A stretch of DNA of 64,000 nucleotides from Branchiostoma floridae (lineage: Eukaryota > Chordata > Leptocardii > Amphioxiformes > Branchiostomatidae), in the NCBI RefSeq assembly GCF_000003815.2, contig NC_049994.1:15232659-15296658 (forward strand), given 5' to 3'. The translations under genes were made by a program, and so were the position numbers. The number at the start of each line of letters is the position of its first letter. The first letter of the stretch is position 1. Below are positions 397-61,800 of the stretch, one piece after another. The notes under the pieces were generated by a model. That model saw only the letters and a list, made by a program, of their open reading frames with translations. It ran no database searches and was not told the DNA's origin.

Positions 397-558
397 TCAC
401 CAACCTTCAGTAAGTGCATCATCAGCCATGGTGAGCATGGCGGCAGCAGAGGGGCGTGTGGTGGGGTTGGGGTCCAGACCACAGCGCAGCAAACTCTGGA
501 AACTCTCGTGGATCAACGAGGGAATCTCTGTCTTGATCTCTTCAGCCTTGCTAACAAT
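397..558 (-). CDS. MAP3K14: TAZ-NIK gene, exon 14, end of kinase domain
   Basis: Acceptor ATGTTACAG. The exon encodes the last kinase helices (LLRCGLDPNPTTRPSAAAML) and reaches a TGA at 397-399, giving a kinase with almost no C-terminal tail. An alternative donor GAAG|GTTGGT at 405 would avoid the stop, and the same weak donor type is used by exon 9. No AATAAA is visible on this strand down to position 1, so a longer C-terminus is possible. Confidence 0.75.
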   Translation of the reverse strand: MVSKAEEIKTEIPSLIHESFQSLLRCGLDPNPTTRPSAAAMLTMADDALTEGW

Positions 559-3500
559 CTGTAACATAAGACAAATCAATTCAGAACTGCAAATACTACA
601 TGTAGGGTGTATCTATTGTTTTTAATAACTATGATGATATTTTTCATTTGTAATGTTTGTGACTTATAAACAATGCATGCAAGGTCATTATATATGACCA
701 TTAACTTAACCTGAACATGTTTATTCTCTCTGTATAATTACAAAGTACCAAGTTGAACCTGTTGATGAATTCTTTCTGTGCAAAGTACTAGTAACCACAT
801 TTGGATCTTTCCACACCACCAACATGACCCAAGCAGAAGATGAAGACTATCATGATTAATAAGTTGATAAAGGTTAGACATACAGGTAACAAGATACACC
901 AAAAAGCAGTCAATAATGCAACCAGTTCTTGAGTAACTGCTTTTGACACAACATGACAATTTGCAGTTCAACTTTCACATCTTTTACAGATCCAGAAGAA
1001 CTAGTCCAACACAGACGAATTTTCAAATTATGATAAATGTGTGTGGGATGATCTTAAAACGTAACACTTACGATGAGCAGGAGCGTGGCTGCGTGGCTGT
1101 AGCGCCGTATCCATGGGTGACACCCGTTCAGCATGTGGAGTCCCACGCAGCAGCCGCTCCACACGTCCACCTTACAGTTGTGAGGCTTACACTCCGCCAC
1201 TTCTGTAGGCATGTGAGTTTGGGTGCCCTGAAAAAAAAACTAAATACTTAAAACCTTCTCCCTGGTGCCTAACCCTGAAATGATCCAAATTTGGTACAAA
1301 AAGGCTACAGTGCACATACTTCCGTGGGGGGAAGGAAAACAAGCTCTAGAAACAGTGTACAATTTTCGTCCTGGTTACAATACTATGAAACAAGCTTCTT
1401 AATCAAAGTATCAGCATTTACAATGTCTACATGTATGTACCAAAAAACAAAACTTAAAATACAAAATCTGTTTCCTAGGTACTGTACTTAATACTCTACA
1501 AAATCACAGAATTGTATGTACTTGTAATCTGTGACAAGATACATATTGTATACGCACAATCAAAGAGCTGGCTTTACTTACAGAGTTTAAAAAAGATATC
1601 TTGTAAACAAGTGAGGCAAAATGTTACAATGACTGAACAAGGGAAAGAATTATCATAGCCATATCAGTGATCAGACATGGCCTATGCAGCACCCACCTCA
1701 GGAAAGGCGTTCCGTTGTGGTTCCACCCAGTCCGCCCCATCAGGAATGGTGTGCGCCATCCCGAAGTCGATCAGTTTGAGGTGTGCCCCATCAGAAGACA
1801 CCATCATGTTGGCAGCTGTAGGGAACATAAGAGTGGTACTTGTAGTAACACACATTTGATGTAAAAAGTTCCATGCTCCTTTGTTAAATGTGTCCTCAAC
1901 TCAGACAATAGCAATATAAATATATCTAATAGTATATAAGATGTGCCCCATCAGAAGACACCATCATGTTGGCAGCTGTAGGGAACATAAGAGTGGTACT
2001 TGTAGTAACACACATTTGATGTAAAAAGTTCCATGCTCCTTTGTTAAATGTGTCCTCAACTCAGACAATAGCAATATAAATATATCTAATAGTATATAAG
2101 ATGTGCCCCATCAGAAGACACCATCATGTTGGCAGCTGTTAAGGAACATAATAATCATACTTGTATTAACACATTTAAAGCAAAAAGTTCCACACTCCTT
2201 TGTCAAATACATCCTTGACAATACATCTTAGACAATAGGAATATAAAACGGATAATCCACTCAGAGGCCTTCTTACACTGTCACTTGTGGCAGCAAAACA
2301 TTAGATTGGTTTACAAATAGCTTGTTGTAATTTAGCCACAACCTATGTGTATATTCTACTTTATATGTACCTATAGCCACATTTATATGTTGTTTTATGA
2401 TGCGATGATATCGGCAATACCTAAGATAGATAAATCAATGCAGACATCAACTTTATGATGTTTTCATCTATATTTCATTCAAAACCAGTAAATTTAAATT
2501 TCCCATTAAGACAGAAGAAATATCAAAAATCTAACTGATGTATGCCCTCTCTCTCTATGTATTTGAGAGCTACTGCCCTCTGTGTGTACCTATTTTGAAA
2601 GGTACGATCTTACTCTAATTCAAAAGGTGAACATTACACTCATAGACTTTAACCCCTCTACACCTATTGGACATAGTCCCACACTCCAATACTTAACAGG
2701 TCATCAGTGTTACTGTAAATGCATTTAAGTTTGCGGAGATTTTCGCGGTGGTTTTAATTTCTCGGTAGCACCAGGCCCTGTAGTATCTTACTGTTATGGA
2801 AAATGTTCGCGGTGGTTTTAAGTTCATGGTGAAGGGACCGCCTCGAAAACCACGAACATTAAACCACCGCAAAAGTTTCTGCATTTACAGTACCTTTGAC
2901 GTCAGAGTGGACGATCCTTTGCTCCTCCAGGTACACCAGCCCCTCGAACACCTGGCACAGGTAGAACAGAGCCATGTACTGGTGAAGGGTTCGGTACTGG
3001 TCGATGATCTTCTCCAAGGTGTAGCCTGGATGGTAACATGACAATGCCTTAGAATTATCCAACATTCGATTTCAGGCTTCCATATTATTTTTATTCGCAT
3101 TTGTCTAATACCATTATGTATACATAGTCTTATGTAAATTTGTCTTGTACCGTTGTAAGTTATGTTATTTGTAGACCTATGCAATCAGCTGTGCTGCCTA
3201 TCGGTCTGTGTAATGTACCGTCGCATTTTGAATAAATAAATAAATCCAACAGCTATGAAGTTAAAGTCCTTCTGCACCAAATAGTGCATAGGGCTGAGCC
3301 CATCTCCGTTTCAGTAGCCCTGGGCCACACAACACCAGGAGGCTAGTCCACAAGCGTTGGGTGTTAACCTTCCATACTTGTTCACGAATGCTGAGTGCTA
3401 AGCAGAGAAAGCAGTCTTTGGTATGAATTTGCCAGGGCTCAAACTCATGACCTACCAAATGCAAGGTGGACACTCTACCAACTTGGCTAGGTTGGTAGAG

Positions 3501-6500
3501 AGCTGGCATGATTGTAAATCTCGGCACAATTCAATGTTTACTGCAATGCCGATTTTATAAATGATTTTGTCAATAAACAAATCACTACTACTAGGTTGCA
3601 TAGGAGTTACCAAGGATGTTGAAAATTCCCAACCTACTAACAGACACTTACATTAGTATTCATTTAGCAGTGGGATACTAAAACCATTTACATTATGGTA
3701 ACCAGACCTACCTTCAAGGAACTCCATGAAGATGTAGGTCTCCCTCCCTTCCCGGACGGCGCCGAAGTGGGCAGCGATGTACGGGTTGTCAAGGCAACAG
3801 CAGATCTCCAGCTCATCCCGCCGAACTTGGGTCACATCCAACTTTGGGAGACGGTAAAAATTCACTATGTTACAGGCTTTGTAATAACTTGAGAGACTAC
3901 ACTTCTAAAAGTTCTCCTCTGACAATGCGTTCGTAAAGCAACAATGGAGAAACTGTCAGTATATAGTCTTAAACCTTCAATCTAACAATCAATGTTAGAT
4001 ACATATCAGTATGCTTTAACACAGCTTGTAAGGCAGCCAGTTTACCACTCGTGAAGTATCAAGAACTGAATTTTCAAATTATAACCGTCTTCGTAGAAAA
4101 GTAACAAGTTTTGCTCCTCTGACCAGTTTGGATCTTAATCTACAATCTAATGGTCACTACTAATATCAGTATGGTCTAACATTGTACACAGCTTGTAAAA
4201 AAAAAGTTGGCTTATGTGAGATATTGGGAATAAGAGGTATAAATTTTCCAACCTTCTTAGCAGCGAAGTGGAACTCTTGCTCCTCCAATGCTTCTGGAGT
4301 GAAATGCCCTTTTAATCTACACATACTAATATCAGTGTGGTATTACACAGCTCGTAAAAACGGTTGTTTGCCGATTATGTGAGACATCGAGAACAAGAAC
4401 TATGAATTGTCCAACCTTCTTAGCAGCAAAGTGAAACTCCTGCTCCTCCGACGCCAGGCAGCTGAGGTATACAGTTCCGAACCTGCCGCTGCCCAGCTCC
4501 ATGATGCTCCACCAATGTTGATCCAGACGGAACTGATCATCACATGGTGGGAGCTTCTCAGCATGGAGATCCAAGACGAAACCTTGAATAAGACATTTAA
4601 GTTGAGTCCCTCTTTTGCTACATTCAAGAGTCACATTAAATTGCTTTACACTTCCTTTTTTAATGTTTAGATATGTTTACATTCTATCATTTCATTTGAT
4701 TATTTCATTAAATATCCATACTTATTTGATTGTGTTATTTTCTTTGATTTGTTTTGTTTAGTAAAGGCAGAAGCTTTTGGGCCTCCCTTGCCCAGTTATG
4801 TTCTTTAATTTATAATTCATTGTCATGTATTTATTGTTATATTCTTTAAGTGCGAAACTAACAAACAAACCTTCGTGCTCCTGGTTGGTGACTCTGCGGT
4901 TTGTCGTCAGCAGCTCCTCCGCCAGCTGTTCCCAGTGCGCGGCGAAGATGGACGCGTGTCGCGGCGGGACGACGGAAACCGCTCCGAGCGGCGGCAGCAC
5001 CGGTTGTTGTACCATGCTCAGGAGGCTGGAGATGGCCTCGGCGGGGAGGGAGGGCATGGTGGAGACCAGCTGGGACAGTCTGTCGGGGAGGGCTGTGGTT
5101 GACGGGACTTGTAGTTGTAGTCCGTCTGGGGGTGGCGCCACCACCTGGCTATAGTTATATAATGTGTTGTTGTAGGATGGAAGCAGCCCCCTCACTGATG
5201 ATGTTACCTGTGTACAGAGGTGCATATGCATGGAGTGAGTCGTCTCCTACAGTAAGACTGTTTATGTTATTCTATACATGCAGGGAACGCCTGTAAAGCA
5301 GTGTGCTAAGCACTAAGCATGCCTACCCTGTATAAAGAAAAACAGAAATCATCATCATCTTCGTGTATCTGGTTCACACCGGTGAGGTACATTAGATAAA
5401 GCTTTTCCAGTAAGACCTGTCATTCATGGAATACCTTAAAGCTTGCAGCATTGAGCCGAGGGCGGTGGAGAACTCTAGTGCATGCAGTCGGCTCTACGCA
5501 CCATGTTCAAGAGAATGAGTGAGTGAGTGAGTGAGATCCTAACATTCCAATGTCCTTTTCGATCATTGTCTTTGACGTTATGTAAATAAATACCTAAAGA
5601 AACAAAGAAATAAATACCTGGATGGAAGAGCTGACGAGGCTCTGCACACTCCGCTGCTGGAGATAGTCGCCGCGCGTCGCGACAAGGTCTTCTCGTCTTT
5701 CCTCACCACCCGTGGCCTTCTGCAGACACGGCAGCTCGTTGTCGTTGAAAGTCATCTCTCCGTACCTGTCCTGGAAGTAGGCATGCACCGCAGCACGGTT
5801 GTTTTGGGTGACGTCGTCTGCGTCTGTTTCTCCGCCAGACTCGATGTGTCGAAGCTTGACGTCGCGGCGGCCTATCGGATTTTCCAGCCGGAAGTCATCA
5901 TGACAGAAGCCTTCCAAAGCCCCTACATTGAAGTGAAGCTCCTCTGGTGGATTCTGTGCAGCATCTTCTTGTGGTGGTGGAGAATGAGGTGGTTGTTGTC
6001 CTTGAGGAAGTTGTGGCGTTTGTTCTTGAGGGTCGATGCTGGATTTCTTCCGACGTCTGCGAGGGGGTGCAACAGGTGCTGCTGGGGAGTTTTCAGGCTC
6101 CTTCTTGCCTCCTCTAGGCCTAAGGCAGGCAGGTAGCTTCCTTTCTTTTTTCTTCGGGTCAGCTTGCTCAGATGACGGTGGCAGTGGTTGCTGGGTCATT
6201 TTTGGTCGGGCACCAAGCATGACAGACTGCCCAGCTTGCCCGAAGGTGTTCACTTGCTGTCCTACAAGAGGAGGACCTGCTGGTTTGATGTCGAGAGTCT
6301 TCGGGCGAGCGCCAAGCATGGCGGATGGAGGCAGTGACGGCGGCGGCTGGGTGCCCGGGCCGTAGGGCAGAGACATGTACTCCTGTCGCAGCTGATACCC
6401 TGGGAAGACAGGAAGGCTGGCTGGGCCACTAGCTCCATACTGCAGATCAGGCTGATGGTGAGACCTTGGTGCGGCCCGTTTGACCGTGATCTTTAAGAAG

Positions 6501-9500
6501 CCCCACAGCTTCTCAGCGATTCCTCCCACCGGCCCCGGGTCGACCTCGTGAAGCTTAATCTTCACATCCCGACAGAAGGCAATGGGGCACAGGCGGTGGG
6601 TGTTACAAGCCCGGGAGTGGGATACAGCGCAGTAGAACACCGCAGTACAGATCTCGCACTGCCCGGCGGGTTTGGAACACGCCGTGACGTGTTTGACGGC
6701 TCCGTGGACCACCTTACACGACGAGCAGTTGCAGGAAGCCCAGTTGGCGGCACCGCGGTGCTGGCGATGGAGATACGAGGTCATAAGCGCCTGGATGAAC
6801 TGCTGCACTTGATCCTGCTCTGGAAACACGACACCGTCGCTCAGCAGGGCAGTCTGGAAAAACATCAAACTCATCTTCAGAGACATTGTCAAGTTTTAAT
6901 GTTTTTTTTAATAATTCATTGTGACATGTACGGCCATTAAGTTTCTACTGTGTATTTGCAATTGTCCAACAATCATCATTCTTTTAGTGGTTTTAGCTTA
7001 ATAAATCTTTTGTTTACTGTACAAGTTTCCTTTTCCTGTTTTGAAGCCATCTCTACAACAGGCAATTTAGTCCTTAAAAGCACAATCAATAAGAAGACAA
7101 TTTGTTATTTCTTTACCAATGTGGTGACTATGTCCTCTGGTGGTTCCTCCTCTTCTGCTGTCTCCTCCCTCTTCATGACCACCTGTCCATCAAGGGGGGT
7201 CCTCTGTAGGGTGGAGGAGGGGGGTCTCCTAGGGGGGTCCCCATCACCATCATCACCACTGGCTGAGGACTGGCTGGTGGTGCGATGAAGGGGGAGGGGG
7301 GCACTTGGGGAGCCAGCGCTCGATGTGGTCTGTACACAACAATGGTAGAATGTGAGTTTGAATGGAACATAAACAAAACATATTTCTGTAAGTGTTACCA
7401 TGACATAAAAGGCTTCCTTTTTTTCTCTATCTCCTTCTTCTATAGAAGTAATATAAACACAATACTGAGCTACATTAACATATGCCATTTAGATATAAGA
7501 TTTTGTGAAAGACTGTAACAACAGCTAAAGTTTTGCCAACAAAGGCACCTTGTATCAAATCAATTTGTATGGCTAGGTTGAGACTGTAAAACAAAGACAG
7601 TTGAGGATATATATGTATACAAAATTCTGTTTTCTATGTTATTTGTTGCATACAACCTTATAGATTTCCTGTGGCCTTACCTGTGTCTGTGAGCCAGAGT
7701 TGGACTGTTGGCTGTTCTTGTCCCCGGGTGCTCTCCTGGCTGCCTGCCGCCCCCCTCCCCTCCTGCCTCGCCTCCTGCCGTGGCTGTTCTTGTACCTCGA
7801 AGGTTTCCTGTGGAACTGCCGCCTGATGAGGGGATTCATAAGGTCAATGTTACGTTCAATGTACAATAACACTATTCCTTCCAAAGCACAGTTCATTAGT
7901 AGAAACTCTGGGGAAACACTGGAGAAACACACCCTGCAGAAGAGGAGATATCTCCTGTATGTATGTTCCATTTTTTCCCTAGTCAGAGGGTTTCTAATGT
8001 TTGCTCTGGAGGATATATATCTGAAAGCTTTCCTTATGGCCAATTAGCGACTGTGATTCCAATGAGTTTCTCTTGAGTTTCATGGTAATCAATCACACCA
8101 ACTGGTCATGGATATTAGCTATGTTTTCCATTAGGTTTCACATGTGTGTCCTTCAGTCACACATTAAAATCAGAATAGAAAAGTGCCCCAGTATGTGTCT
8201 ACTGTATGACTGAGCTTTGCTTATCTATGTTCAATTTTAACGACCACTGTAATGATAACTGATTGTAATGGCGTGTCGCAATTCAGCCGTTTGGCTGCCG
8301 TGTCATTGTTGTTATTTTGAACTAAACAAACCAGTCATATGTTACAGTAAGTAATTGTAAAATGACAGTATGAAGAGCAGTATGTCCTTAATCTTAACAA
8401 TACTCTATTTCCCTCCAAGATTTATGTGACCATAATATAACAATCCTCAACTAAAACAGAAGCCTAAACAACAATATTCTAAGACACAAAAGGAAATAAT
8501 TTGAAACTTCAGAAATACACTGAGTACATTTAGTGTTACAACGTACCTTTTCACAACAGCACACTGTGATCTTGGAGAATGCTTCCTTGTCTTCTGTTTG
8601 AGTACCTGCTTCTTGTCTACAAAAAGAAAGAAATGAAGTTGAAAAGCCTTTGTTATAACTTAAGTCTTCATAATACATAATACCAGGCACATACAAACAT
8701 TAGTCATTACAAGGTTCAAATGAAAAATCTTATTACATATACTAAAGAGCTGAAACAAAGTTTATTTTTTAAGGAATGGCTACTAATGCTACAACAGTAA
8801 AATGAACATCCCAAGTCATTCAGTATCAGGGTTCAAAATACCACCTGCATAAGCAGGTTAGTGCATGTAAAATTGGAGCTGTACAGGTATTTCTGGTGTC
8901 TACCTGCACGTATCCTGCACTGGTCCATGTACTGGGTTTTATACATAAATGTCATATGATGTAGGTGCATGTGGATTGTTATTAGCTGTATTGAATGTTA
9001 CCACCTATAAAGAACAATTTGAGTATGATCCATACTTTCTAAATTTAGAGTGGTGCAGGAAAGATTTGTCTGGTGCAGGGAATTTTCAATGTTACCTGCA
9101 CCGGTGCAGGTATGCAGAAAAAAGTCTTTCAAGCCCCGAGTATGGTGCTGGTACTTACCCCCTTTGAAAGCCCTTCTCCCAGCATGTGCTGGCTTCTTCT
9201 TGTCATGCTCAGTCTTGGTGGGTGTCCTCTTTTTCAGCTTCTGTTGCTTCTTACCATGTGCCTTGGTCCTGTAAATTATTGCATGGAGTTAGCTTTACCA
9301 AAAAGTGGAAAGAGCACTTATTCACTGTCATAACTATAGCTTGGCCTATACTTTCTCAGATTCCAACCAGCATTGACATAACGTCCATCATAACATACAT
9401 TTGTACATTATGGCACAGAGTTGGCTCATACCCAAAAAGCCCATAGCATGCTTTTATACATGTGCATTTTGTCCATATGATGTACTCTCCAACCAGAGAT

Positions 9501-11378
9501 TTGGCTCCAGCTTTTTATCGGGCTTTCTATTTTATCTGGCTTTCTATTCTGTACCATTATCTCTCTGGTGGCCAAACATAAAGCAAATGGTACAAAATAG
9601 AAAGCCAGATAAAATGCCTAAAAACGTGTCTTTCAACAGCCGGAGTCGATCCTCTGCTTGGAGAGTTCATATGACACTGTAAATGCAAAAACTTTCACAG
9701 TGAGTGGTCTAATGTTTGCGGTTTTCGCGGTGGCCACTTCACTGTGAACTTAAAACCATCGCAAACATTTTTCCATGGCAGTAAGAGACTATAGAGCATG
9801 GTGCTACCGCAAACTTAAAACCACTGCAAAGGTCCTTTTTCCCGCTGACGGGATATCGAACTCCCGCTAACTTAAATGCATTTATAGTACTGTACGATAA
9901 TATCTCCTTTTTTAGTTAAATCCCACACTATAACTTATAGTATAAGAACATAAGTAGTTGCTTAATGTGGGCTAACATGCTTGAAAATTGTTGCAAACTA
10001 CATCATTCTGCACTCACCCCATGGTTCCCTTCATGGTCTTCTCCAGAGCCTCCTCTGTGTCCTTTTCAAAGACAGCTTCATTCTCCTCCACATCTTCCGT
10101 GCTGTTGTCATGGCAACTGGAGGCAGAATTCTCGTCTGCAAAGGTGTCAATCTTCTCTGACTCTTCCTCGACATCCTTGTCAGGGTCGGGTTCCTTCAAG
10201 TCTTCTGTCTTCTCCTTGTCTTGACTCTCTGAGGAGTTTGCAGAATCTTTCTCGAGAGCTCCGTCACTCATAAGATGCAGAATGACTTCTGGGTACTGAG
10301 TGAGCAGCACCTTGGCAACTGCCCAAGGGTCGCTGGACCAGTTTGTAAGAGGAGGGCAATTTTCTTCTTCTCCTTCTACATCGCTCTTCTCACAGTTTGC
10401 CTCGAGATCAGCCTTGCTCCATCCCTGCTGGTCTTCGTCGACAAAGTCGGAGACTTGCTGCTTGCCAGTTTGCTGTTGGGGTTGTGTGGTGATGGTACAT
10501 GAAGTGGGTTCTTTCTCACTAGACAGGCTCACTGACAACTCACACTGTTGGGGCTGTGTGGTGATGGTGCATGACGTGGCTTCTTTCTCATTGGATGCCA
10601 GGCTCACCCACAACTCACACTGTTGAGGCTGAGAGGTGGTGGTGTTGTCATCCTCCTTCTCATCTGGCAAACTCACCTGTAGGACACATTTTTGACATAC
10701 AGTCTCTTTCTAATGGTGCTTTCAAAACACTCTGTACTTTGTTTGGATTCTCCTCTTTGCAAAGTCTATACTACAAAATGTATGGTTTGACTTGAATTAC
10801 ATTGTACAAACTGGTTGTTTTGCACCCTCTTAAATCACACAACTTTGATTAATCAATCAGTGTCCTACCAGACACCTACAGAGGGGGAGTCAGGATTTGA
10901 CTTCTACAAATTATCACCAATTAATTAAGACATTGTTTACATTCATCTGTCCGTTCATGACTTGATATATCTTTGTAACTTTCTTGTTTGATGGTGGTGC
11001 TAACTAAAGTTGACCTAGCTCGTGTACACTGTCATTTTGTTTGTACTTGTTCATTTATGTTTGTTTGATTAAAAAATTAAAAAAATAAAAACTCACCTGT
11101 AAGTTGTCATCATCATCAGATTTCTCTGCAAAGATGTCAGTTTCCGTTACTCCAGCCTTGATGCTGTCTTCTTGCTCTGCTTCATTGATGTACCTGTTGT
11201 CAGTGACTGTGAGGATTTTCAGCACTCTGTCTGTGCCGTTATCCTTCAAGACTGAAGGATCAGGGGAAGAATCGGGGACATCTTTGGATGCATCTGACTT
11301 TTCTTTTTCTTCCTTTTCTTTCAAATGGGCCTCCTTTGGAGTTGTATGATCTCTGTCAGAGTTACCGGTGATGGCCAT
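397..11378 (-). CDS. MAP3K14: TAZ zinc finger - NIK-like protein kinase, complete gene model (14 coding exons)
   Basis: Seen: 14 exons (11378-11097, 10676-10018, 9268-9159, 8616-8547, 7822-7681, 7329-7117, 6853-5618, 5207-4871, 4582-4416, 3841-3712, 3025-2894, 1815-1697, 1227-1072, 558-397) join with matching phases into 3915 nt, about 1304 residues. Order: acidic Ser/Glu-rich N-terminus (1-310), Lys/Arg-rich segment (about 314-410), TAZ finger (about 505-593), Pro-rich region with PPRRRRKKSS, linker, kinase (about 1040-1250). Known: NIK (MAP3K14) is the kinase of non-canonical NF-kB signalling; vertebrate NIK has no TAZ domain. The kinase part carries NIK hallmarks: [30 protein letters not shown]-like [10 protein letters not shown]. 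Inferred: a cephalochordate NIK orthologue or close relative with an added zinc finger. Uncertain points are the 3' end (possible further exon at the window edge) and whether every transcript joins the TAZ and kinase parts. Confidence 0.8.
1072..1227 (-). CDS. MAP3K14: TAZ-NIK gene, exon 13, kinase C-lobe NIK signature
   Basis: The 156-nt exon (52 codons, phase 0) lies between TTTTTTCAG and ATC|GTAAGT. It encodes GTQTHMPTEV (APE-like motif as PTE) and [20 protein letters not shown], which is the strongest NIK-specific match in the gene. Confidence 0.9.
1697..1815 (-). CDS. MAP3K14: TAZ-NIK gene, exon 12, DFG exon
   Basis: The 119-nt exon completes the catalytic loop (AAN, metal-binding Asn about 1162) and contains SSDGAHLKLIDFG, the DFG Asp at about 1176. 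Acceptor CCCTACAG, donor GAG|GTGGGT. Its acceptor and first about 36 nt are tandemly copied twice in the upstream intron. Confidence 0.85.
1783..2230. repeat. 160-bp tandem repeat, about 2.8 copies, including an exon edge
   Basis: Units start at about 1783, 1943 and 2103. The first two are nearly identical and the third has diverged. Each holds the first about 36 nt of the DFG exon plus its acceptor and about 120 nt of intron. Confidence 0.95.
2713..2890. mobile_element. short inverted-repeat element (MITE) at a 5' splice site
   Basis: 178 bp with ends CTGTAAATGCA / TGCATTTACAG, an internal inverted repeat (cgcggtggtttta, aaccaccgc) and a TA duplication (2711-2712, 2891-2892). No coding capacity. 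A relative lies at 9677-9887. Confidence 0.8.
2894..3025 (-). CDS. MAP3K14: TAZ-NIK gene, exon 11, kinase catalytic loop
   Basis: The 132-nt exon ends in the catalytic loop IVHSDVK. HRD is replaced by HSD, comparable to HGD in NIK, while the catalytic Asp (about 1157) and Lys (about 1159) are kept. The donor AAAG|GTACTG abuts an inserted inverted-repeat element: intron bases from +4 on come from its terminus. Confidence 0.85.
3190..3515 (-). mobile_element. probable tRNA-derived SINE
   Basis: Read on the minus strand, TAGCCAAGTTGGTAGAGTG matches a pol III A box and GAGTTTGAGCCC a B box at tRNA-like spacing. The body ends near an ATTTATTTATTTATTC tail. The reading frame across it is not a gene. 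The exact ends are uncertain. Confidence 0.5.
3712..3841 (-). CDS. MAP3K14: TAZ-NIK gene, exon 10, kinase helix C to hinge
   Basis: The 130-nt exon encodes the helix-C Glu (RRDEL, about 1082), then PYIAAHFGAVREG and the hinge IFMEFLEG. These two motifs are near-identical to NIK. Donor GAAG|GTAGGT. Confidence 0.85.
3900..4445. repeat. degenerate tandem array containing the glycine-loop exon's donor edge
   Basis: At least three diverged copies, about 155-165 bp each, share caacct-tcttagcagc-like, ttgctcctc and actaatatcagt blocks. The copy at about 4182-4300 is closest to the true exon edge at 4340-4450 and keeps the AAG|GTTGG donor; copies near 4026-4180 and 3900-4020 are weaker. Confidence 0.75.
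4416..4582 (-). CDS. MAP3K14: TAZ-NIK gene, exon 9, kinase glycine-rich loop and VAIK lysine
   Basis: The 167-nt exon contains LGSGRFGTVY (Gly-rich loop, residues about 1046-1055) and HFAAKK, whose first Lys (about 1071) is the ATP-binding lysine. The donor is the weak AAG|GTTGGA, but ending here gives a helix-C region of exactly NIK length. The 3' edge of this exon is copied in the flanking intron. Confidence 0.85.
4830..4835 (-). promoter_or_regulatory. intronic polyadenylation signal AATAAA
   Basis: A minus-strand AATAAA lies 36 nt into intron 8, while the exon 8 reading frame stays open for about 38 codons into the intron. Use of this site would give a TAZ protein without the kinase. Presence is seen; use is inference. 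Confidence 0.35.
4871..5207 (-). CDS. MAP3K14: TAZ-NIK gene, exon 8, linker before kinase
   Basis: The 337-nt exon is spliced in phase to the TAZ exon (CAG / GTA) and leaves one base for exon 9. It encodes a linker with a helical-looking stretch (HWEQLAEELLTTNRRVTNQE). The junction residues EG plus the next exon's VLDLHAEKLPP resemble, from memory, the stretch directly before the NIK kinase domain, which supports the exon 8-9 join. Confidence 0.75.
5618..6853 (-). CDS. MAP3K14: TAZ-NIK gene, exon 7, TAZ zinc finger and Pro-rich region
   Basis: The 1236-nt exon (412 codons, phase 0) holds a clean TAZ finger at about 6551-6817. Its ligand-type clusters CNCSSC, VKHVTAC, CEIC, CAVSHSRAC and CPIAFC match the three HCCC sites of CBP/p300 TAZ2, and the closing FCRDVKIKL matches the family's FCLNIKxKL. 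In CBP/p300 TAZ domains bind transactivation domains. After it come a repeated Pro-rich unit (two copies of MLGARPK), a basic PRRRRKKSS stretch and an acidic C-terminal part. Acceptor TTTTCCAG; donor CAG|GTATTT. Confidence 0.85.
6551..6817 (-). other. TAZ zinc-finger domain
   Basis: About 89 residues with 13 Cys and several His spaced as in the CBP/p300 TAZ domain. A helix-forming lead (QQFIQALMTSYLHRQH) corresponds to the first TAZ helix, followed by three Cys/His clusters. Family membership is clear from spacing; the binding partner is unknown. Confidence 0.85.
7117..7329 (-). CDS. MAP3K14: TAZ-NIK gene, exon 6, Ser/Pro-rich then acidic
   Basis: The 213-nt exon (71 codons, phase 0 at both ends) runs between TGTACAG and TTG|GTAAAG. 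It encodes a Ser/Pro-rich, probably disordered linker ending in an acidic run (EETAEEEEPPED) just before the TAZ exon. Confidence 0.7.
7681..7822 (-). CDS. MAP3K14: TAZ-NIK gene, exon 5, Arg/Gly-rich segment with two possible acceptors
   Basis: The exon ends ACACAG|GTAAGG and encodes GRRRGRRGGGRQAARR, an RGG-like basic tract, then a Ser/Gln-rich tail. Two in-frame acceptors 15 nt apart (exon starts 7822 or 7807) would add or drop five residues. The upstream site has the better pyrimidine tract. Confidence 0.65.
8547..8616 (-). CDS. MAP3K14: TAZ-NIK gene, exon 4, basic segment
   Basis: The 70-nt exon runs between TTTTTGTAG and AAAAG|GTACG. Phase agreement with exons 3 and 5 selects the Lys/Arg-rich frame (KKQVLKQKTRKHSPRSQCAV), extending the basic region. 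The other frames either stop or break the junctions. Confidence 0.6.
8828..9145. repeat. palindrome-rich repeat with GTGCAGG motifs
   Basis: This intronic stretch has many direct and inverted copies of cctgca / tgcagg, including the palindrome cctgcaccggtgcagg. It resembles a decayed inverted-repeat element; ends and duplication are not clear. Confidence 0.4.
9159..9268 (-). CDS. MAP3K14: TAZ-NIK gene, exon 3, basic segment
   Basis: The 110-nt exon lies between acceptor TTTACAG and donor GGGG|GTAAGT and is phase-matched on both sides. It encodes a strongly basic peptide (KKQQKLKKRTPTKTEHDKKK) that could act as a nuclear localisation or nucleic-acid-binding stretch. Only this frame joins both neighbouring exons without a stop. 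Confidence 0.65.
9525..9625. repeat. imperfect hairpin
   Basis: tatctggctttctattctg-taccat and its inverted copy atggtac-aaatagaaagccagata lie about 40 bp apart in intron 2 of the kinase gene, so the transcript could fold into a stem of about 25 bp. No function is known. Confidence 0.55.
9677..9887. mobile_element. second copy of the CTGTAAATGCA inverted-repeat element
   Basis: Ends CTGTAAATGCA and TGCATTTATAG with internal gtttgcgg / ttcgcggtgg blocks as in 2713-2890. It is more decayed and non-coding, in another intron of the same gene. Confidence 0.7.
10018..10676 (-). CDS. MAP3K14: TAZ-NIK gene, exon 2, acidic region with internal peptide repeat
   Basis: The 659-nt exon begins after CTACAG and ends ATGGG|GTGAGT, leaving two bases that complete a Gly codon with exon 3. 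It encodes about 220 acidic residues. Two near copies of a segment with the shape QPQQCEL.VSL.S.EKE.TSCTITT, followed by a partial third, show a recent internal duplication. The rest is Glu/Asp/Ser-rich with no known fold; a short hydrophobic stretch (AVAKVLLTQYPEVILHLM) may form a helix. Confidence 0.75.
11097..11378 (-). CDS. MAP3K14: TAZ-NIK gene, coding exon 1 (start codon)
   Basis: The first coding exon encodes 94 residues starting MAITGNSDRD and ending in an Asp run (DDDDNLQ) before donor CAG|GTGAGT. The ATG at 11378 sits in a good context (GGCATGG). Ten bases upstream an acceptor (CTATAG) ends a 5' untranslated intron. The exon then begins ATGTGA, a start codon directly followed by stop, so translation should reinitiate at 11378. 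The peptide is highly charged (KEKEEKEKSD) and shows no recognisable domain. Confidence 0.75.
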
Positions 11379-20701: not shown

Positions 20702-20886
20702 TCAGCTACGCGTTATTCAGCTCTACGCTTCATAACTGCCTTCGACTCTCCCGAGACCAGTTGAGTAATATTTTTCGTCGTATCGTATACAACAGTTATT
20801 TGTACTGAAAAACATTCGAACAATCCAGCAGTATCTACAGAAACAACATCCAAATAACGAATCAAACGCCGGCAATTTATAGAGAT

Positions 20887-21226
20887 ATGAATTTCTCAAA
20901 CGTACCCTTCACGACCAACGCGTCCGATGCGGTGTCCTCTTCAGCGAGATTGCCCGCGGAGCCCGCCGCCATCATCACCGTAGCCGCGTTGGCCATCGTC
21001 GGCAACTTCCTCGTTCTCGTCGCAACCACCAGACGACAGACGTTCCCGTCCGCCAGTCGACTCTTCATCGCCTCCATGGCCTGGTCGGACCTGCTACATG
21101 GCTCGATCTTCCCGTTCCTGGTGGCGCCAGCCCGGGCCGGGGAGTGGGTGTACTCACACACCGCCGCACAGGCTATTGTAGTCATAGGAGCGTCCTCCGT
21201 AGCGACAACTGCCTTCGCTCTCGCAG
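20887..21226 (+). CDS. GPCR exon 1 (N-terminus to TM3)
   Basis: Starts at ATGAATTTCTC and ends with one base of a Gly codon at CTCGCAG|GTACAG. Encodes a Ser/Ala-rich N-terminus, TM1, TM2 and TM3 up to the residue before the DRL motif. Frame extension past the donor stops shortly. Confidence 0.8.
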
Positions 21227-22843
21227 GTACAGCTTCTACTCTTCAAATTCAATGATACCATGATCTGTTGTACCAACTCTGGAGACTCCGAATGGGCGTG
21301 AACGTTTCTGCTGATATCTTTTATTTGTTCACGTAATGCTGGTTCACCTTTATCCGAGGGTAACCTATATTCGTTGTTTGTACAAAAAACGGTTTTAGGA
21401 ATATACAGTAGGTGGACGGTGGTTTAAAGTCGGAACATTTTGAAAATATTGCAAATTTGAAACCACTGTCAGCAGCCTTAATAATCCTAGTCCTAAATGT
21501 GCTGTTTTTAAAGGCAACGGATAAAGGTCACCCCACGGATAAAGGTGAACTAGCGTTACGTGTAAAAGACATCGGCAGAAACGTCCACGCATTTGGAGTC
21601 TCCAGGGCTACTGTACTGCTGTACTAGAACAGATGTTCTGGATGCAACAGATGTTCTGAATGCTTTTGCCGCTTATTCGTAACTCCCAGATTTCCTGGAT
21701 GTGTTTGGTGCCATTGGTAAATCTCACTTTTATTCTGTAATAAGCCCTCCATACCCAGCGCCCGATGTTATTTAAGCTATTACAAGATTATTTCCCTGGT
21801 AGGTCTGACCTATGTAACGTTATATAACGTCCTTGGTCTGACGGTTGCATAGAGAAATGGTTGCCTTATAAGTAGTGATAAATCCTATATAACTCTGATA
21901 ATCGTTGTTGCAAGTACCAAATCCCAAAAGCAACCATTACCAGAAATGTTTGCTATTATCAAATCCCGCTCTTCGTGCAGTGTGTGCTTTGAAGATTGCG
22001 CTCAGGCAATATACAAAGAATTTTGCCATTGCACTCAAAATGGGAAAAGAGTTTTTTTCATATTTTCATAGATATTGTTGTTTGAAGACATCCACAGCAT
22101 ATCACTTACACTGTATAATCGTTGTCATTATAGGTCTGAATGTAGATCGCCTCTGTGCTCTCAAGAACGACGGAGTTGGCATGTCTCGCAAGAAGGCCTG
22201 GATCTTTCTCATCTCAACTTGGGCTGGGGTATACGCTTTTTACATCTTCTCTACAGTGTACGGGGTTCCCGTGTATTACGATCCAGTTATGGCCTTACCA
22301 TCATATGATTTAAAGGCCCACATATGGTTTAGCGCCGTTATGTTTATCATAATATGTAGTCCTCTTATCGTTACGCTGTATTGTGTTGTCCGGATCCTGA
22401 GAGCACTGTGCGCTCAAAACGAGCCACCGGCCGCACAGGCCGCTATCTACATTAACGTGGTTGGGGCTGGGGGTTCTCCACCTCAGAATGCACCCCAGCA
22501 CCAACCCGCGCCCCAGAATGACACCAGCGATCGGTCGTACGCCAAGGTTGTGTTAATTTTAACCCTCGTACAGATAATAATGCAACTTCCAGCTGTATGT
22601 GCTTTCGTCGTAAGCCAGCTGCCCGTTGGTGATGATCTGCCAACCTTCGTGTTTTGGTCAGCCTGGATAGGACTGTCCAACATCTTTCTGGACGTTGTAG
22701 TGTACAGCGTGTGCCAAAAGTCCTTTCGTATAGCTGTGAAAGAGACAACGATATCTGTGGTCTCTTGTCTGCACAACGTGTGCTGTAGGAGAAATCGTGT
22801 TAACGTCGACGACCAACAGAACATAGACATGAGCAATCTGTAA
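20887..22843 (+). CDS. rhodopsin-class GPCR, two exons
   Basis: Exons 20887-21226 and 22134-22843 join (CTCGCAG|GTACAG, TTATAG|GTCTGA) into 349 residues. TM1 has the conserved GN (IVGNFLVLVA), TM2 has WSDLL with Asp2.50, and TM3 ends DRL instead of DRY, directly after the intron. A Pro-rich third loop precedes TM6 (LPAVCAFVV, without the CWxP Trp). TM7 has DVVVY in place of NPxxY, and the expected Cys at the top of TM3 is absent. NFS and NAS near the N-terminus are likely glycosylation sites; the tail has Cys-Cys pairs. It is an atypical orphan receptor; I cannot name a ligand. The intact frame argues against a pseudogene. Confidence 0.8.
22134..22843 (+). CDS. GPCR exon 2 (DRL motif to C-terminus)
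   Basis: Begins after TTATAG with GLNVDRL and carries TM4 (FLISTWAGVYAFYIF), TM5 (AVMFIIICSPLIVTLYCVV), the third loop, TM6, TM7 and the tail ending MSNL before TAA. Confidence 0.85.
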
Positions 22844-27543: not shown

Positions 27544-28875
27544 TCACTCGATGTCTTCCACGCTGGCCAAGGCTTCAACAGCTGGCGTCTGCACTGACTT
27601 TGGCGGGGCTACGAACAGCACATCTGCGCGACTGGAGCTCTGTGCGTTTCTCGGATTCTCTGTTGGTCTTCGAGGGAATACCCGTCTGGCCGGCTGGTCA
27701 GTCCGATTGCCCGTACTCGGTCCAGCGGTTCCCATTCCTCGCGGCGCTCCGACCACCTGAATGTTCACCACTTGATTCGATGACCAGCCAAACTTTTCAC
27801 GCACCGCGTTGGCGAGTCGTCGCGCCCTACGATGCATAGCGTCTCGAATCTTCTCGATCCTGAGTGCGTAGATGACCGGATTGATAACCGAACTGCAGAG
27901 ACCGATCAACATCCCCCATTTTGGCTTTGCCTCCATCTCACAGTCTACCCTTGCAAAGCACAAAAACTGCCGCACCATGTCGATGCAGAGCGGCAGCCAG
28001 CTTACGACGAACACCGCTGCAATAATGACAACTGTCACCTGCTTCTTCTGACTGTGTAGGAGGTGCTGGAATTTTCTTGCAGCAAGTCGTTGTTCCCTGC
28101 GTCTTGCGGCGGGGAGGTTGTCTTGAGGGCTCTCGGTAGCCATGGGTCTGGTTCTAGAGATGCGCCGCTTCAGTACGATGAAGATTCTGACGTTGGTGAA
28201 GATCACTATCACTACGGCCATGAACAAGATGATGTTGATAAGGATGAGGTAGCCCACTGGTACCTGCCCTATGCAGTTCTCTGTGTTCATATCAACATCG
28301 ATGCAGTTCCAGCCCATGGCAGGGGACAAGCAGACAAGCACGCAAACTGTCCATGCGATCCCCAAGCTCACGGCAACGTGTCGCTTGGACATGCGGGTCT
28401 GGTAGAATATCGGGTGGAGGATGGCCAGATAACGGTCCACGGATAGAAGGACCACGCTAACTGCTGATAAGACCAGCACTAAAAGGAAGGTACAGACTAC
28501 GCTCACTGATGTCAGTGGTTGAGGCACTTCCGTCTGGAAAATGGCACAGAAGAAGAACGAGAAGAAACCTGCCGCGCAGTCCGCCACAGCCAGGTTTGCC
28601 ACGAACAGGTGCATGGGTTTGGACAGGTGGTGGTTTTTCAGCACCCCGGCCAGGACCGCGCCGTTCATGAGGAGAGCGACTGTCCCGACGGTGGCGGCGA
28701 TGATCCCGACTTTCCGGTTCTCGTCCAGATGCGGAGCTGGCAGATGAGTACAGGAAGTTACCGCCAGGTCGTAGTCAACGTTGCTTTCTAGCTGCCCGCG
28801 GAAGCAAGGCCAGAAAGACTCGAACACCGTGGAGTTTCCTCCGGTGAAGTTCGCGGTGCTTTCGTTCATCCTCAA
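27544..28875 (-). CDS. rhodopsin-class GPCR, lysophospholipid/cannabinoid-like, single exon
   Basis: 443 residues, one exon. N-terminus with NES, NFT and NST glycosylation sites; TM1 LLMNGAVLAG; TM2 LFVANLAVADCAAGF; TM3 ends SVDRYLAILHP; TM4 GIAWTVCVLVCLSPAMGWNC; TM6 VVSWLPLCIDM; TM7 SSVINPVIYALR. The Cys normally at the top of TM3 is absent and loop 2 instead has two Cys nine residues apart after GWNC. This combination is typical of the S1P/LPA/cannabinoid (MECA) receptors, which lack the usual TM3-loop disulfide. Long Arg/Pro/Ser-rich C-terminal tail. Ligand unknown; it could also be a lancelet-specific member. The start ATG is the first in frame, and an ATG two codons downstream is nearly as good. 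Confidence 0.88.
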   Translation of the reverse strand: MRMNESTANFTGGNSTVFESFWPCFRGQLESNVDYDLAVTSCTHLPAPHLDENRKVGIIAATVGTVALLMNGAVLAGVLKNHHLSKPMHLFVANLAVADCAAGFFSFFFCAIFQTEVPQPLTSVSVVCTFLLVLVLSAVSVVLLSVDRYLAILHPIFYQTRMSKRHVAVSLGIAWTVCVLVCLSPAMGWNCIDVDMNTENCIGQVPVGYLILINIILFMAVVIVIFTNVRIFIVLKRRISRTRPMATESPQDNLPAARRREQRLAARKFQHLLHSQKKQVTVVIIAAVFVVSWLPLCIDMVRQFLCFARVDCEMEAKPKWGMLIGLCSSVINPVIYALRIEKIRDAMHRRARRLANAVREKFGWSSNQVVNIQVVGAPRGMGTAGPSTGNRTDQPARRVFPRRPTENPRNAQSSSRADVLFVAPPKSVQTPAVEALASVEDIE

Positions 28876-29734
28876 GACAGCCCTTTCCTCTCCCTATGGC
28901 AAGAAGGACTGATTTGGGGCTTTCCACCTTTTCTTCTAACTCATGACGACTTCGGCTACATGACTTTCTACAATAATCTCTCGGGTCTACTGACAACTGA
29001 GGAAAATGTAGTACATTGTATTTTGCTTCTGTACGTCAGTGTTACCACGGCTTCACACCTGCCACATGTGTTGCCATGACAATCAACAGTCACGATTTGC
29101 TTGTCACCCATTTGATCAAAATGTCAATCCGAGCGAGAATGCTGTGGTGCTGGACACAAACATAGCTCAGGGTTTTGCCCCCTCATAGCAAATACCAATC
29201 CCTTTCAATTACAAATTGCCACAAGCTTTTCATCCATGTCTTTAGAAACATGTCTGAACGGAGGTGACGCATATAAGGCCACAGCCTGGCGCGCACGTTT
29301 CATCCACCCACCGTACACGTGGCCTTAAATATATATAAAGTCCTTCTACAGTAATAGTTTCTTTCACCGGACAGCAAACTTACGGAACTCGACGATACCT
29401 GTTTCCCTCCTGTCTACAACTTATCAGCCTTCAAAACAAATGTCCAAAGCTACCTCCGTACACAGTTTCCAACTTTTTAGTTCATTCCATTGAAGAAGAC
29501 AGAAGCCTTAACCTTGTGTGGAGAGCAAGAATACAAATGACTTATAACTATTAAAGTAAAGCCCTAGCCTCATGCATAGCTACGAAGACAGAGAAGCCAG
29601 TATGACCAAGAAGAAGAACTGTCGCAACTGGGCAAATCCGGGAATGAGAGATCAATCGCCTTGTTTGCCAACGAGTCTAAACGTTTTCAGTGACAGAAAT
29701 GTGCTAAAATATGCTTACTTAGTAAAATGTCTAT

Positions 29735-55800: not shown

Positions 55801-58800
55801 TTACAAAGTTCACGTCCTCTTCCAAAATGTTTCATATATTGTTTTTGTTTCTCATGTTGTTCAACCTTGCAAGGCAGGGATAACCAACAATTTGTTTATT
55901 TGTTTGTGTTTACCTCTGATGCATAGGCATTTGCCTCCTTCAGTCTCTTCATCTCTGGATCCTGCTGGATGGTTGTGTACTTGCCACGCCCCTTGCTGGC
56001 ATCGTCCTTGTCCTTAATCTCTCCATAGAGAACCTTAGGAATATCCCAACCAGCCATTGTTTGTTTATGTTACAATTCACTAGACATTAGCTGCTGATTA
56101 GCCATTGATACAAGATCAGGGAAAGCCCATCACATTGTCTGTGCTGACTGGATTCTGCCTCCAAAAGGCACTTAACCATTCTCACGCTATTCATACTAGT
56201 ATTAAAGCATTCCAGATGTCAAGAATGACCACCAGACCACAAAGGTACAACCATAGCTACAAGCAGATTCAGTAAGCCCAACCTGTGTTGGTCGATCTTC
56301 GACATAAGAGACTGTGCCATGCTATTCACAAATAGAATATGTTTATCAAAAAGCTGTACTGCTTTGAGGGGAGGACTACATGTAAGTATGTAGTATATTT
56401 AAGGCAAGCATCACTTATTGAGGATTTTGACTGCCAATTCCCCAACATGAAACTTTCCCAATCACAAGCAGTTTTCTGAAAACATTATGCCTTCCGACAT
56501 AATCCAAAGTCCAACACCTAGACTTGTATTTGATATCAAGTCACACAACATTCCTTGTGGCAGGCATGAATACCTGGCTTTGGAACTTTCCAACTTCCTG
56601 GAGGCGCTTGAGTTCGGGGTCGTCGATGGCGGCATGGTACTTCTGTCCATGTTGCTCCAGGCGAGTGTGGCCATAGTGGATCTATTGAGAAGTGAATTAG
56701 GCAGAGGAGAAAGATATAGACACCGAAAGGGACAGCCAGCAATACAGGTAGGAAAAATAAATGATCAGCCATTCAAAATTAAGAAGAAAGCGTTAAGACT
56801 AAAATAATATAAAAAGAAATGAAGGGAAAAGAAAATAGGCATGCATCTAACAAAGGTTAAAATAGTGCTACCAATAACAGTGTACACATAAGGGTGTTTT
56901 GGAAGGTAAGCTAGGGATAAGGTGCACTACATGTACATGTGTAAAGTTGCTTAAAGGTATACATGGCATGATTTTTCCAATTTTCTAATGTCAATTTTCC
57001 TTGAAGAGCACAAATCTTGCCTTGTATACTTTTATTGTGAGCAAACTGAAAGAAAAGCATTACAGGCAGGCAGAAAGGTTTCAACATAAACAAAACAGAG
57101 AGAAGAGAGATAGAAAGGAACAACAAAGAGCAACAGGTGTCCAGCAAGTGGTGTGTAAGAAGATGGGAAACAGTACACAGATAGATAGAAGGCATGAGAT
57201 GCATCAGAGCAAAGAAAAAAACACCAGAGAGACATGGTGGAAGAGAAAGGTTTAGGTTCTGGGAGCAGTTGGAAGGATGGAAGAGGAGAAAGCTTCTTCG
57301 AAGGAAGAGACAGTGGTCTACTGTAGCTTTGGTTTGGTTTGGTTAGCTAGGCGGATCCTACGACTACAAAGTAAGCTTCTTCTACGAAGGGAAGGGACCT
57401 CGTCTACTCTTGTAAGGCTTCCCTAACTGTTTAGTACTGTTAGTGGATAGTTTCGAGGTCCATGTACCTGACAGTAAGTGAGCGCCTCAGGGTCTGCCAT
57501 AGTGCACACCGTCCACGTTGGCTGCCTATATCTTGTTGCCTCCACGACCTTATTATTGTTATTGTTCCCATTCAAAGCCGCTAGGTCCTCATCGAGGGTG
57601 CGCACTATCCCCCGCATCGATTGCTCGTGGAGTTCGATAAGACGGCGCACCATGTCCTGGGTCATGGGGGTGTCATCATCCTCCTCCTGACCCCCATCCC
57701 TGAGCGCCTCAGGGGGAGTGTCCGAGCGGCGACTCGTAACCGACACCCCTGGTTTCTCATCTTTCACCGCCCCTGCTGACTTCAAACCCACCTGCTCTAT
57801 CGTCTGTTTCACCTCTTCTACCTGCTCTTTAGTCTCTACGACATCCCCACCCTTATATATAACCTCCAGCTCCGCCTTTCCAGCAGAGTCGGCCCCTCTT
57901 AACTCCTCTCCGGACAGGCTAAAACCTACCTTCTTCTTCCCACGGTATTTAGGCGCCCCTTTACTACTGCTTGTACCCTCAGTATAGGATGGGATCTCTG
58001 GTTCACGATGCTTACCAGAGGCAACATCTTCGTAGAATTTGGCCATGCTTTCAATATCTAGGGACCACTGAGGTTCCTCAAACTGTGTGCTTTCTGATAC
58101 CCTATCCCCGAAAGAGCTCTCAAAAACTTGCCTTTGGTATTCAGCCTGAGCGGTAACTTTGGACAGAGTCAGGGCCCGCTGTGTCTCTGGATCATAAAGG
58201 ACTGTTGTGTAGCTACCTTTAGTTTCCTTAAACCTCTTTTCATAGTTAACAAAGCTGTCTAGACGCGAGATCTCGATAACGCGGCTGTTCTCGGAGTTGA
58301 ACAGCAGGGTCCTGTAGTTGCTGGTTTCGATGATGAGCTCTTCTTCGAATGCAACTAAGTTGTCAACCCTGGTCAGGTCTATGAGACGTAGGACCACCTT
58401 GTTTGTGGCACGTTTGACAATGGTCTCAAAGCTTTCCACGTAATCGTTGCGGAAATCCTTCTGTGATGAGATTGAAGACAAGTTCATGGCCTTCTTTGTG
58501 GCTGGGTCGTACAAAACTGCAACATGAGGCCCAACCTGGTGCGTGAACGCTTCCTTGTACTTGTCAAGGTGCTGGATTTTGGATATTTCCATCACATGCC
58601 GTGTTTCTGGGTCATACAAGATGGCATTGTAGTTCGCCTTTGCGATGTCATAGTCCTCGTGGTATCGGGTGACACCGATAGCCTGGGACATTTCGATTAC
58701 CCTTAGGATGGACATGTCTATGCTGGCGGAGTACGCAGCCCGACCCTCCATTGTTTGAGGGTAGTCTTTGCGATACCTAACCGAGCTCTGAACCTGGGTC

Positions 58801-61800
58801 AGGTCAAGAGCCCGCTGCGTTTCTGGATCAAAGAGGATCGTCGAGTATTTCCCCCTGCCCTTCTGGTGCTCTTCCTGGTACTTTGAAAGGCTCAGGATCC
58901 TCGAGAGTTCGACCACACGTTTGGTTTCTGGGTCATACATAACGGTGGTGTACTTGTCCTTATCCCTGAGGAACTCCTCCTGGTACTTTATCACACTCTG
59001 AACATTTGAGATGTCGATGAGTCTCAACAGCTCTTTGTCACCGTATGTAGAGATGTGAGGCCTTCCTTCGAATGTAATCGGGAAGTCCTTCTTATACCCA
59101 ATCTGTGACTCTGTCTTTGACAGCTCAATGCATCTCCTAGTCTCAGGATCGTAGATGATGGTTGCGTAGTGTCCTTTCTCTTTCTCGAAGTTCTTCTTAT
59201 AGTTGACGTAGCTCTGTATTCTGGTCAGCTCAAGGACCCTCTGCGTCTCAGGATCATACATACAGGTGGTGTAGTCGCCCTTAGACAAGTCATACTCTTT
59301 CTGGTATTGTATCAAACTCTGTAGTTTAGTGAGCTCGATGATGCGCAGCGTCTCCTTGTCGTCAGGAATGGGGATGTAGGCTGCCCTGCCTTCAAACTCT
59401 TGTGGGAAGTCCCTCCTGTATAAGAGAGTGCTCTGAACTCGGGAGGCTTCTTGTGCATGGCGGGAGTCGATGCTGTCAGTTGCCAGAGTGTACTGTCCCT
59501 TCTCTTGCTCAAACTGCTCGTGGTACTTGAACACACTCTGCATCTTTTGCATCTCAATCACCCGTTGCGTTTCAGGATCGTAGAGAACAGTTTGGTACTG
59601 ACCAACATTCCTCTTGTACTCATCCTCGTATTTGACCAGACTCTGGACTGCTGACAGTTCAATGACTCTCTGTGTCTCTGGATCAAAGAGCACTGTTGTG
59701 TATTTGCCCTTGTCCTTCTTGAACTCCTCATGATACTGTGCCAAGCTCTGAAGCTTGCTCACGTCAACGAGACGGAGGATTTCCTTATCAGCCTCATCAG
59801 CGCCCTTTCCACCGCGGCCTTCCATGCCAACAGGGAAATCCTTCTGGTACTGAATCTGACTCTGCAGTTTCGTAGACTCTACCGCTGTCTTGGTACGGGG
59901 GTCCCACAAGACAGTTGTGTAATTTCCCTTATCACGATAGAACTGCTCCTGATAGTTTATCAGGCTCTGGACTCTGGAAATCTCAAGGAGTCTCTTGGTT
60001 TCCGGGTCGAACAGGATAGTGGTGTAACCACCCCTTCCCTTCTCATACTCAGAGCGATACTCGGCCAGGCTGTGCAGTTTGGACATCTCAACAAGCCTGA
60101 CCATTTCCTTGTCTGTTGTGGATGAAGTGTAGCCAGGCCTTTGTTGATACTCCAGCGGATAGTCTCTCCTGTACTCGAACGTGCTCTGGAGATGAGTGAC
60201 ATCGGTGGCTCTACGAGTCTCCACATCGTCCGTAATCTGCATGATGTTGCCCTTTCCTTTTTCGAAGTCCTCGTGGTACTTGAAGGCGCTCTGGATTTCA
60301 GACATCTCCATAAGGCGTTGTGTCTCAGGATCAAACATAATGGTGGTGTACTGACCCTTCGATCTCCTGTAGTCCTCTTCATATTTGATCAGGCTCTGGA
60401 TGGAGCTAACCTCCACAACCCTCTTAGTCTCTGGGTCGTAAAGGACAGTGGTATAGTTGCCCTTGCCTCTCTGGAACTCCTCTTGATACTTCGACAAGCT
60501 CTGGAGCTTGCTGATGTCCACAAGACGCAGGACCTCCTTGTCCTGGTCGTCTATCACACCAGCATCTCTTCCTTCCATGGCAACTGGGAAGTCCTTTTGG
60601 TATTCCAGCTGGCTCTGAGTTTTGGATAACTCTACCACCCGCTTGGTCTCAGGATCGTACAGAACGGTGGTGTAGTTGCCCTTCTGTTGTTGGAACTGTT
60701 CTTGGTATTTCACCAGGCTCTGTACGTTTGAGAGCTCCATGGTTCTCCTTGTTTCTGGATCAAACAGAATCGTGGTGTAACCGCCTCTTTCCTTCTCGTA
60801 TCTCTCGTGATAGTTGATCAGGCTGTGAAGCTTGGTCATGTTCACCATCCTGACCACCTCTTTTTCGTCGGCAACAGGAGTGTACTGTGGCAGCTGTGCC
60901 CGAGCTTCCTTCCCGTACTCAACTGTACTCTGGAAGTGGGACACCTCCTCTGCCCGTTTTGTCTGAACATCATCTGGTATCTGTGAGTAGATGCTCTTGC
61001 CCCTCTCAAAGTCCTCCTGGTATTTGAAAGCGCTCTGGATTTCAGAAAGCTCCAAAAGACGCTTGGTCTCTGGATCGAACATGACAGTTGTGTACTGTCC
61101 CTTATTTTTTTTGTACTCATCTTCGTACTTGACCGCGCTCTGAATTGAGGACAGTTCAACCACCCTTTGAGTCTCGGGATCGTAAAGAATGGTGGTGTAT
61201 TTTCCTTTGCCCTGCTCAAACTCTTCCTGGTACTTGAGGATGCTGTGGAGTTGAGACATGTCCACAAGACGGAGGATTTCTTTGTCAGCCTCTGCACCTG
61301 ACTGTGCAGCCCTACCCTCCTTGAAGTCCTTCTGATACTCGACCTGGCTCTGAATCTTGCCAACTTCGATGGCACGTTTAGTCTCAGGATCGAAGAGAAC
61401 AGTCGTGAAGCTGCCCTTTTCCTTCTGGAACTGTTCCTGGTATTTGATCAAGCTCTGGATTTTGGACAGCTCAATCAGACGTTTGGTTTCAGGATCGAAC
61501 ATCACAGTGGTGTAAGCACCCTTTTCATCTTCATACTCCTTGTTGTACCGGATGAGACTGTGGATTTTCTGAAGGTTCACAACTCTCAGCAGCTCTTTGT
61601 CATCAGGGATCGTTGTGTAGCCCGATCTACCTTCGTAACGAAGCGGGTAGTCTTTCGGGTACACCACTGAGCTTTGGACCTTAGTTATCCCTGTCTGCCT
61701 CCTTGTCTCAACATCGTCAACAACCGATGTGTATTGGCCCTTTTCTTTTTCATACTGCTCATGGTAATGAACATCGCTCTGCTTGCTGGACAGGTCAATG

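Follow-up and report, generated by a model that had tools for sequence, protein, structure and literature searches.

Introduction

NIK (MAP3K14) controls non-canonical NF-κB signaling, and TAZ domains grip the amphipathic helices of transactivation domains, B-Myb and MITF being examples. PMC7696043 describes NIK as having a TRAF3-binding N-terminus, next a negative regulatory domain, then the kinase, and lastly a C-terminal domain that serves IKKα and p100. TAZ2 is reported to hold three zincs through HCCC motifs (PMC12022988), and an autoinhibitory role is given for the TAZ2 of p300 in PMC10475075. Little was found on the design of NIK before vertebrates; a survey in Aplysia, according to PMC9334734, could not identify NIK. 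Within the library and terms searched, no title or abstract start deals with a NIK that has a TAZ domain.

We analyzed a window of 64,000 nucleotides from a lancelet genome (C16:15232659-15296658 of an assembly with 513 Mb in 431 contigs), and the region beyond its left edge was also read. The gene models of the window gene and of its paralog are known here from the genome sequence alone. One gene that runs from the window into its left flank is probably the NIK ortholog of this animal and would encode about 2,066 residues with a TAZ docking module in the N-terminal regulatory region.

Results

Gene structure within the window

On the minus strand, the predicted chain of 14 exons (11378 to 397) was found as described in the genome sequence. 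Its 3,915 nt are open with no internal stop, all introns are GT...AG, and the exon phases are consistent (Table 1). Directly upstream of exon 1 there are a TGA in frame and a TAG that resembles an acceptor, which makes a 5' UTR exon likely.

Table 1. Features of the TAZ-kinase gene, numbered by window position
Feature	Position	Strand	Remarks
Exon 1	11097..11378	-	ATG at 11378; N-terminus acidic
Exon 2	10018..10676	-	acidic; TTQPQQ-type peptide repeats; one PxQxT match (aa 160)
Peptide repeats, exon 2	10473-10644		TTQPQQ type, unit 24-25 aa
Exon 3	9159..9268	-	basic
Exon 4	8547..8616	-	basic
Exon 5	7681..7822	-	basic (RRRGRRGGGR)
Exon 6	7117..7329	-	weak donor; alternative end 7183 in frame, higher score
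Exon 7	5618..6853	-	412 codons; TAZ-like domain followed by a Pro-rich tail, which has two MLGARPK motifs
TAZ-like zinc-finger domain	6545..6793	-	exon 7, about aa 513-595
Zinc site 1, altered	6716..6760	-	H524, A528 for Cys, C533, extra C535, C538
Zinc site 2	6647..6691	-	HX3CX6CX2C (H547, C551, C558, C561)
Zinc site 3	6572..6619	-	HX3CX5CX4C (H571, C575, C581, C586)
Exon 8	4871..5207	-	linker; tail HWEQLAEE; last six residues open the NIK alignment
Exon 9	4416..4582	-	NIK N-terminal extension, glycine loop, AAKK
Exon 10	3712..3841	-	GAVREG
Exon 11	2894..3025	-	HSDVK catalytic loop
Exon 12	1697..1815	-	AAN, DFG
Exon 13	1072..1227	-	GTQTHMPTE, LHMLNGCHPW
Exon 14	405..558	-	kinase end; proposed donor at 404

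Splice-site strength is expressed as the share of decoys scoring as high (1,306 decoy GTs for donors and 1,480 decoys for acceptors). The donor of intron 6 (TTG/GTAAAG) is poor, being equalled by 50% of decoys, and the in-frame alternative CAG/GTGGTC at 7182 scores better. The link between the TAZ-like domain and the kinase is independent of this intron. When the three forward frames are compared for codon preference, the proposed one ranks first in 17 of the 21 exons, among them exons 7 and 8, and not in exons 3, 4, 5, and 13. This measure decides little; the reverse frame equals the proposed one in some exons.

Two duplications are found in the kinase part. A 160-nt unit that takes in the beginning of exon 12 forms a tandem repeat extending into intron 11 (1779-2139), with two complete copies (99%) and a third of 41 nt (98%), and the extra copies reach a stop. 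Intron 9 has a second copy of the end of exon 9, the AAKK region (4212-4291 versus 4375-4454, 84% identity). Elsewhere in the window, a rhodopsin-type GPCR is encoded in a single exon (27547-28893), and a GPCR-like fragment below the Pfam cut-off lies at 20809-21252. An uninterrupted frame of 2,191 codons extends to the window edge (57426-63998), with nebulin repeats in the part examined (57426-59999).

Identity of the kinase

Among the best 60 of 2,262 matches of a phmmer search against the PDB, eleven NIK sequences come at the top with 185–189 bits (best 188.9, E 1.5e-54). MAP3K8 (TPL2), the second kinase family in these 60, follows with 99.5 bits, and the next match has 90.4. A tree of 16 rows places the window kinase together with vertebrate NIK and a paralog on contig C3 on a branch with support of 92/92, with MAP3K8 outside, while the window kinase groups with vertebrate NIK alone at only 70/62. 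With nine rows the branch is at 85/94, its interior is unresolved, and the three NIK rows do not form one side of a branch. The N-terminal extension of the NIK kinase domain can be aligned with NIK in the PDB, and against human NIK no shuffle out of 3,000 scores as high in any of three schemes. Because of the PDB scores, the 92/92 branch, this extension, and a modestly NIK-like C-terminal domain described below, the kinase is, as read from its sequence, NIK/MAP3K14. The identity proposed in the original prediction is thereby borne out, and the phylogeny does not place the kinase far from NIK.

The motifs GAVREG and LHMLNGCHPW are present, as had been stated. The further statement that every catalytic residue is kept applies to the AAKK lysine pair, HSD (the HxD motif), AAN, and DFG, but APE reads PTE. 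The activation-loop threonine is also retained (GTQTHM) and is presumably T559 of NIK. The position of the proline that is replaced by Thr in PTE should be noted, since we take it to be P565 and thus the place of the P565R mutation; kinase activity is therefore not to be assumed from the sequence. P565R is listed among the patient mutations of NIK in PMC7696043.

In a genome search with the kinase (136 of 204 candidates scored), six of the 116 matches listed are exons of this gene, and none of the remaining ones exceeds 47% identity. The C3 paralog (about G000:C3:11717600-11723800; L021, L022) was joined by hand from six exons. Its best PDB match is NIK with 99.9 bits, followed by MAP3K2 (87.6) and MAP3K8 (85.7). 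By manual reading, its junctions match introns 9–14 in place and phase, the counterpart of intron 14 being a candidate. The acidic N-terminal part and the kinase start of the paralog are in one exon; the acidic N-terminus of the window protein shows no significant similarity to the paralog (235–495 of 1,000 shuffles as high). A search of 29.7 kb around the paralog, one stretch of which reads N, detected no TAZ domain (best E 0.23) and no NIK C-terminal domain (best E 0.34). From the paralog it follows only that a TAZ domain is not obligatory for a NIK-like kinase.

The TAZ-like domain in exon 7

In a sequence search, the exon-7 segment matches TAZ2 of p300 with an E-value of 6.6e-8, and PDB chains that we take to be TAZ1 give 0.023 or worse. 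The alignment score is 117, while shuffled sequences have a mean of 28.9 and a maximum of 60, with none of 5,000 as high; against the CBP-type TAZ2 of the same genome, none of 5,000 is as good. The shuffles keep the same letters, and therefore cysteine content does not explain the score. The genome carries five CBP-type TAZ2 copies, one on C7, two on C215, and two on C2 (L001, L002, L003, L004, L008), against which hhalign gives 89.9% with an E-value of 1.7e-6. The segment is 26–29% identical to them. The TAZ exon is found once in the genome, and the next best match (E 0.0066) is at a CBP-type TAZ2. We conclude that the exon-7 segment is, to judge from these comparisons, a divergent TAZ domain homologous to TAZ2 of p300.

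The zinc finger named in the original prediction is thus recovered by homology, but not in every respect. The Pfam model zf-TAZ (PF02135) gives 18.9 bits (E 0.0021), below its gathering threshold of 25 bits, and the nine places found with this model in the genome do not include the segment. Sites 2 and 3 are canonical and retain all eight ligands, and zinc binding is predicted for the domain. At site 1, an alanine replaces the cysteine at +4, and there is an additional cysteine at +11. A single-sequence AlphaFold model of the segment is uninformative (pLDDT 36). The Pfam score and the lost cysteine might suggest a decayed remnant that has neither the three-zinc fold nor helix docking left. We regard such decay as improbable, given that sites 2 and 3 are complete, that the extra cysteine could complete site 1, and that the frame stays open across 412 codons.

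The join of exons 7, 8, and 9

Exon 8 joins the TAZ exon and kinase exon 9 with phases 0 and 1, exactly as had been claimed. The tail of exon 8 (HWEQLAEE) is similar to the stretch ahead of the kinase in the C3 paralog, which carries a WEQL motif. Compared with this stretch in three schemes, 21, 14, and 28 of 3,000 shuffles are as high for the whole exon, and 3, 2, and 7 for its last 50 residues; with the start of exon 9 added, the numbers against the paralog fall to 2, 1, and 0. Since the stretch shares one exon with the kinase start in the paralog, this likeness argues for assigning exon 8 to the kinase part.

Intron 7 is 410 nt long and contains neither AATAAA nor ATTAAA; the nearest AATAAA, at 4835, is in intron 8. 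Its splice sites are ordinary for the gene, with the donor equalled by 2.3% of 1,306 decoys and the acceptor by 9.5% of 1,480. On the basis of phase, ordinary splice sites, and the short intron, splicing of exon 7 to exon 8 is plausible, and we infer that it occurs in the animal. Of the proposed single gene, the join of exons 8 and 9 is thus supported through the likeness to the paralog, and that of exons 7 and 8 is plausible by sequence only.

The chain might also be an in-silico fusion of two neighbors on the same strand, one a TAZ protein made of exons 1–7 or exon 7 alone, the other a NIK that starts at or near exon 8. False fusions of neighboring genes are a known class of error in lancelet annotation, as documented in PMC4967905. 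That work disputes PMC4284660, which reports that genuine domain shuffling is very high in lancelets; in the disputing work, 43–53% of 93 ortholog pairs, depending on the release, differ in domain architecture, and its authors blame gene prediction. The reading frames would also permit two genes, with ATGs shortly before the acceptor of exon 7 (6886, 6874, and 6865), a stop 21 nt beyond the end of this exon, and ATGs before the acceptor of exon 8 (5231 and 5225). Furthermore, exons 1–8 have no significant similarity to human NIK upstream of the kinase. In three schemes with 2,000 shuffles each, 1,350–1,396 are as high for exons 1–6, 1,872–1,908 for exon 7, 610–821 for exon 8, and 1,166–1,433 for the exon 7 tail with exon 8. 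Against such a division, with exon 8 going with the kinase, the whole gene boundary would have to fit into the 410-nt gap, which has neither AATAAA nor ATTAAA and is flanked by phase-matched, ordinary splice sites. A NIK that begins in exon 8 would, moreover, have hardly any N-terminal regulatory region. Two separate genes are therefore unlikely in our judgment.

An alternative promoter or start that adds a kinase-only isoform to the TAZ-kinase form is compatible with a single gene, and we consider it possible, though somewhat doubtful. The in-frame ATGs ahead of the exon 8 acceptor would serve such a form, and intron 7 has a higher GC content (0.42) and CpG ratio (0.56) than introns 6 (0.30 and 0.17) and 8 (0.28 and 0.18). 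This CpG ratio is nevertheless lower than those of exons 7 and 8 (0.77 and 0.82). Altogether, a protein in which the TAZ domain and the kinase are joined probably exists.

The end of the gene

The stop at 397–399, with which the original prediction ended the gene, was rejected as the gene end, since there is a strong donor at 404 and seven further exons (15–21) lie downstream. This donor of exon 14 (AAG/GTTGGT), which is nearly the same as that of exon 9 (AAG/GTTGGA), is equalled by only 0.3% of the 1,306 decoy GTs, and the end of exon 14 is very probably at 405. The stop is probably reached by reading through into the intron. With exons 15–21, which lie outside the left edge of the window (locus L009), the full model has 6,201 nt and 2,066 residues. 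Two junctions among these exons are weak or unproven, including the donor of intron 19 (40% of decoys as high). The C3 paralog likewise permits a reading that stops behind its kinase, which calls for caution over the extension past 397.

The full model ends in a long tail and a NIK-like C-terminal domain, which is found once in the genome. This domain is modestly similar to human NIK: 47, 26, and 18 of 3,000 shuffles are as high in the three schemes, 37 of 3,000 globally, and 46 of 5,000 in a separate test. The human pre-tail helix has no significant similarity to exon 19 (286–605 of 3,000 shuffles), and Pfam gives nothing above cut-off for the tail and the C-terminal domain. In an alignment with human NIK, the first glycine of this C-terminal domain presumably corresponds to the place of mouse G855. 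A mutation of G855 in mouse NIK is named in PMC7696043.

Discussion

The order of the proposed NIK ortholog would be an acidic and basic N-terminal region, a divergent TAZ finger, a proline-rich linker, the kinase, a long tail, and the C-terminal domain. The TAZ domain lies between the basic stretch and the kinase, which is the place of the negative regulatory domain in NIK, and has no significant similarity to that domain. The kinase may act as vertebrate NIK does and phosphorylate an IKKα-like kinase, while the C-terminal domain would hold IKKα- or p100-like partners. By analogy with TAZ domains that grip helices and with the autoinhibition by TAZ2 of p300, the most likely role of the module would be to dock an acidic amphipathic helix. 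In trans, such a helix might come from a Rel-type or other factor, in a segment resembling a transactivation domain. Alternatively, an acidic helix of NIK itself might bind in cis, and the module would then be an autoinhibitory clamp on the kinase.

If the join is real, this kinase has a design absent from vertebrate NIK and represents a new domain pairing. A TAZ domain on NIK would mean either that the kinase is physically connected to transactivation domains or that it is autoinhibited in a new way. NIK may even have once carried a TAZ domain that bound Rel-type transactivation domains directly, so that kinase and transcription factor formed one complex; this animal would have kept the module and vertebrates lost it. 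An old capture would agree with the low identity to the genome's own CBP-type TAZ2, but we consider this history rather unlikely.

The window protein and vertebrate NIK have in common the kinase with its N-terminal extension, GAVREG, the lysine pair, the non-RD catalytic loop, the activation-loop threonine, LHMLNGCHPW, and, by modest similarity, a putative C-terminal domain in the last position. Unlike vertebrate NIK, the window protein has a TAZ-like domain, an N-terminal region of about 1,000 residues, a threonine in place of the APE proline, and a longer tail. No match to an ISIIAQA-like TRAF3 motif was found in the protein, which has only bare motifs, the PxQxT in exon 2 and one PxQxS at residue 1547. 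With TAZ2 of CBP/p300 the exon-7 domain shares two of three zinc sites and can be aligned across about 80 residues. It differs from TAZ2 in the changed first zinc site, in one extra residue in site 3, and in its host protein, which is a kinase and not an acetyltransferase.
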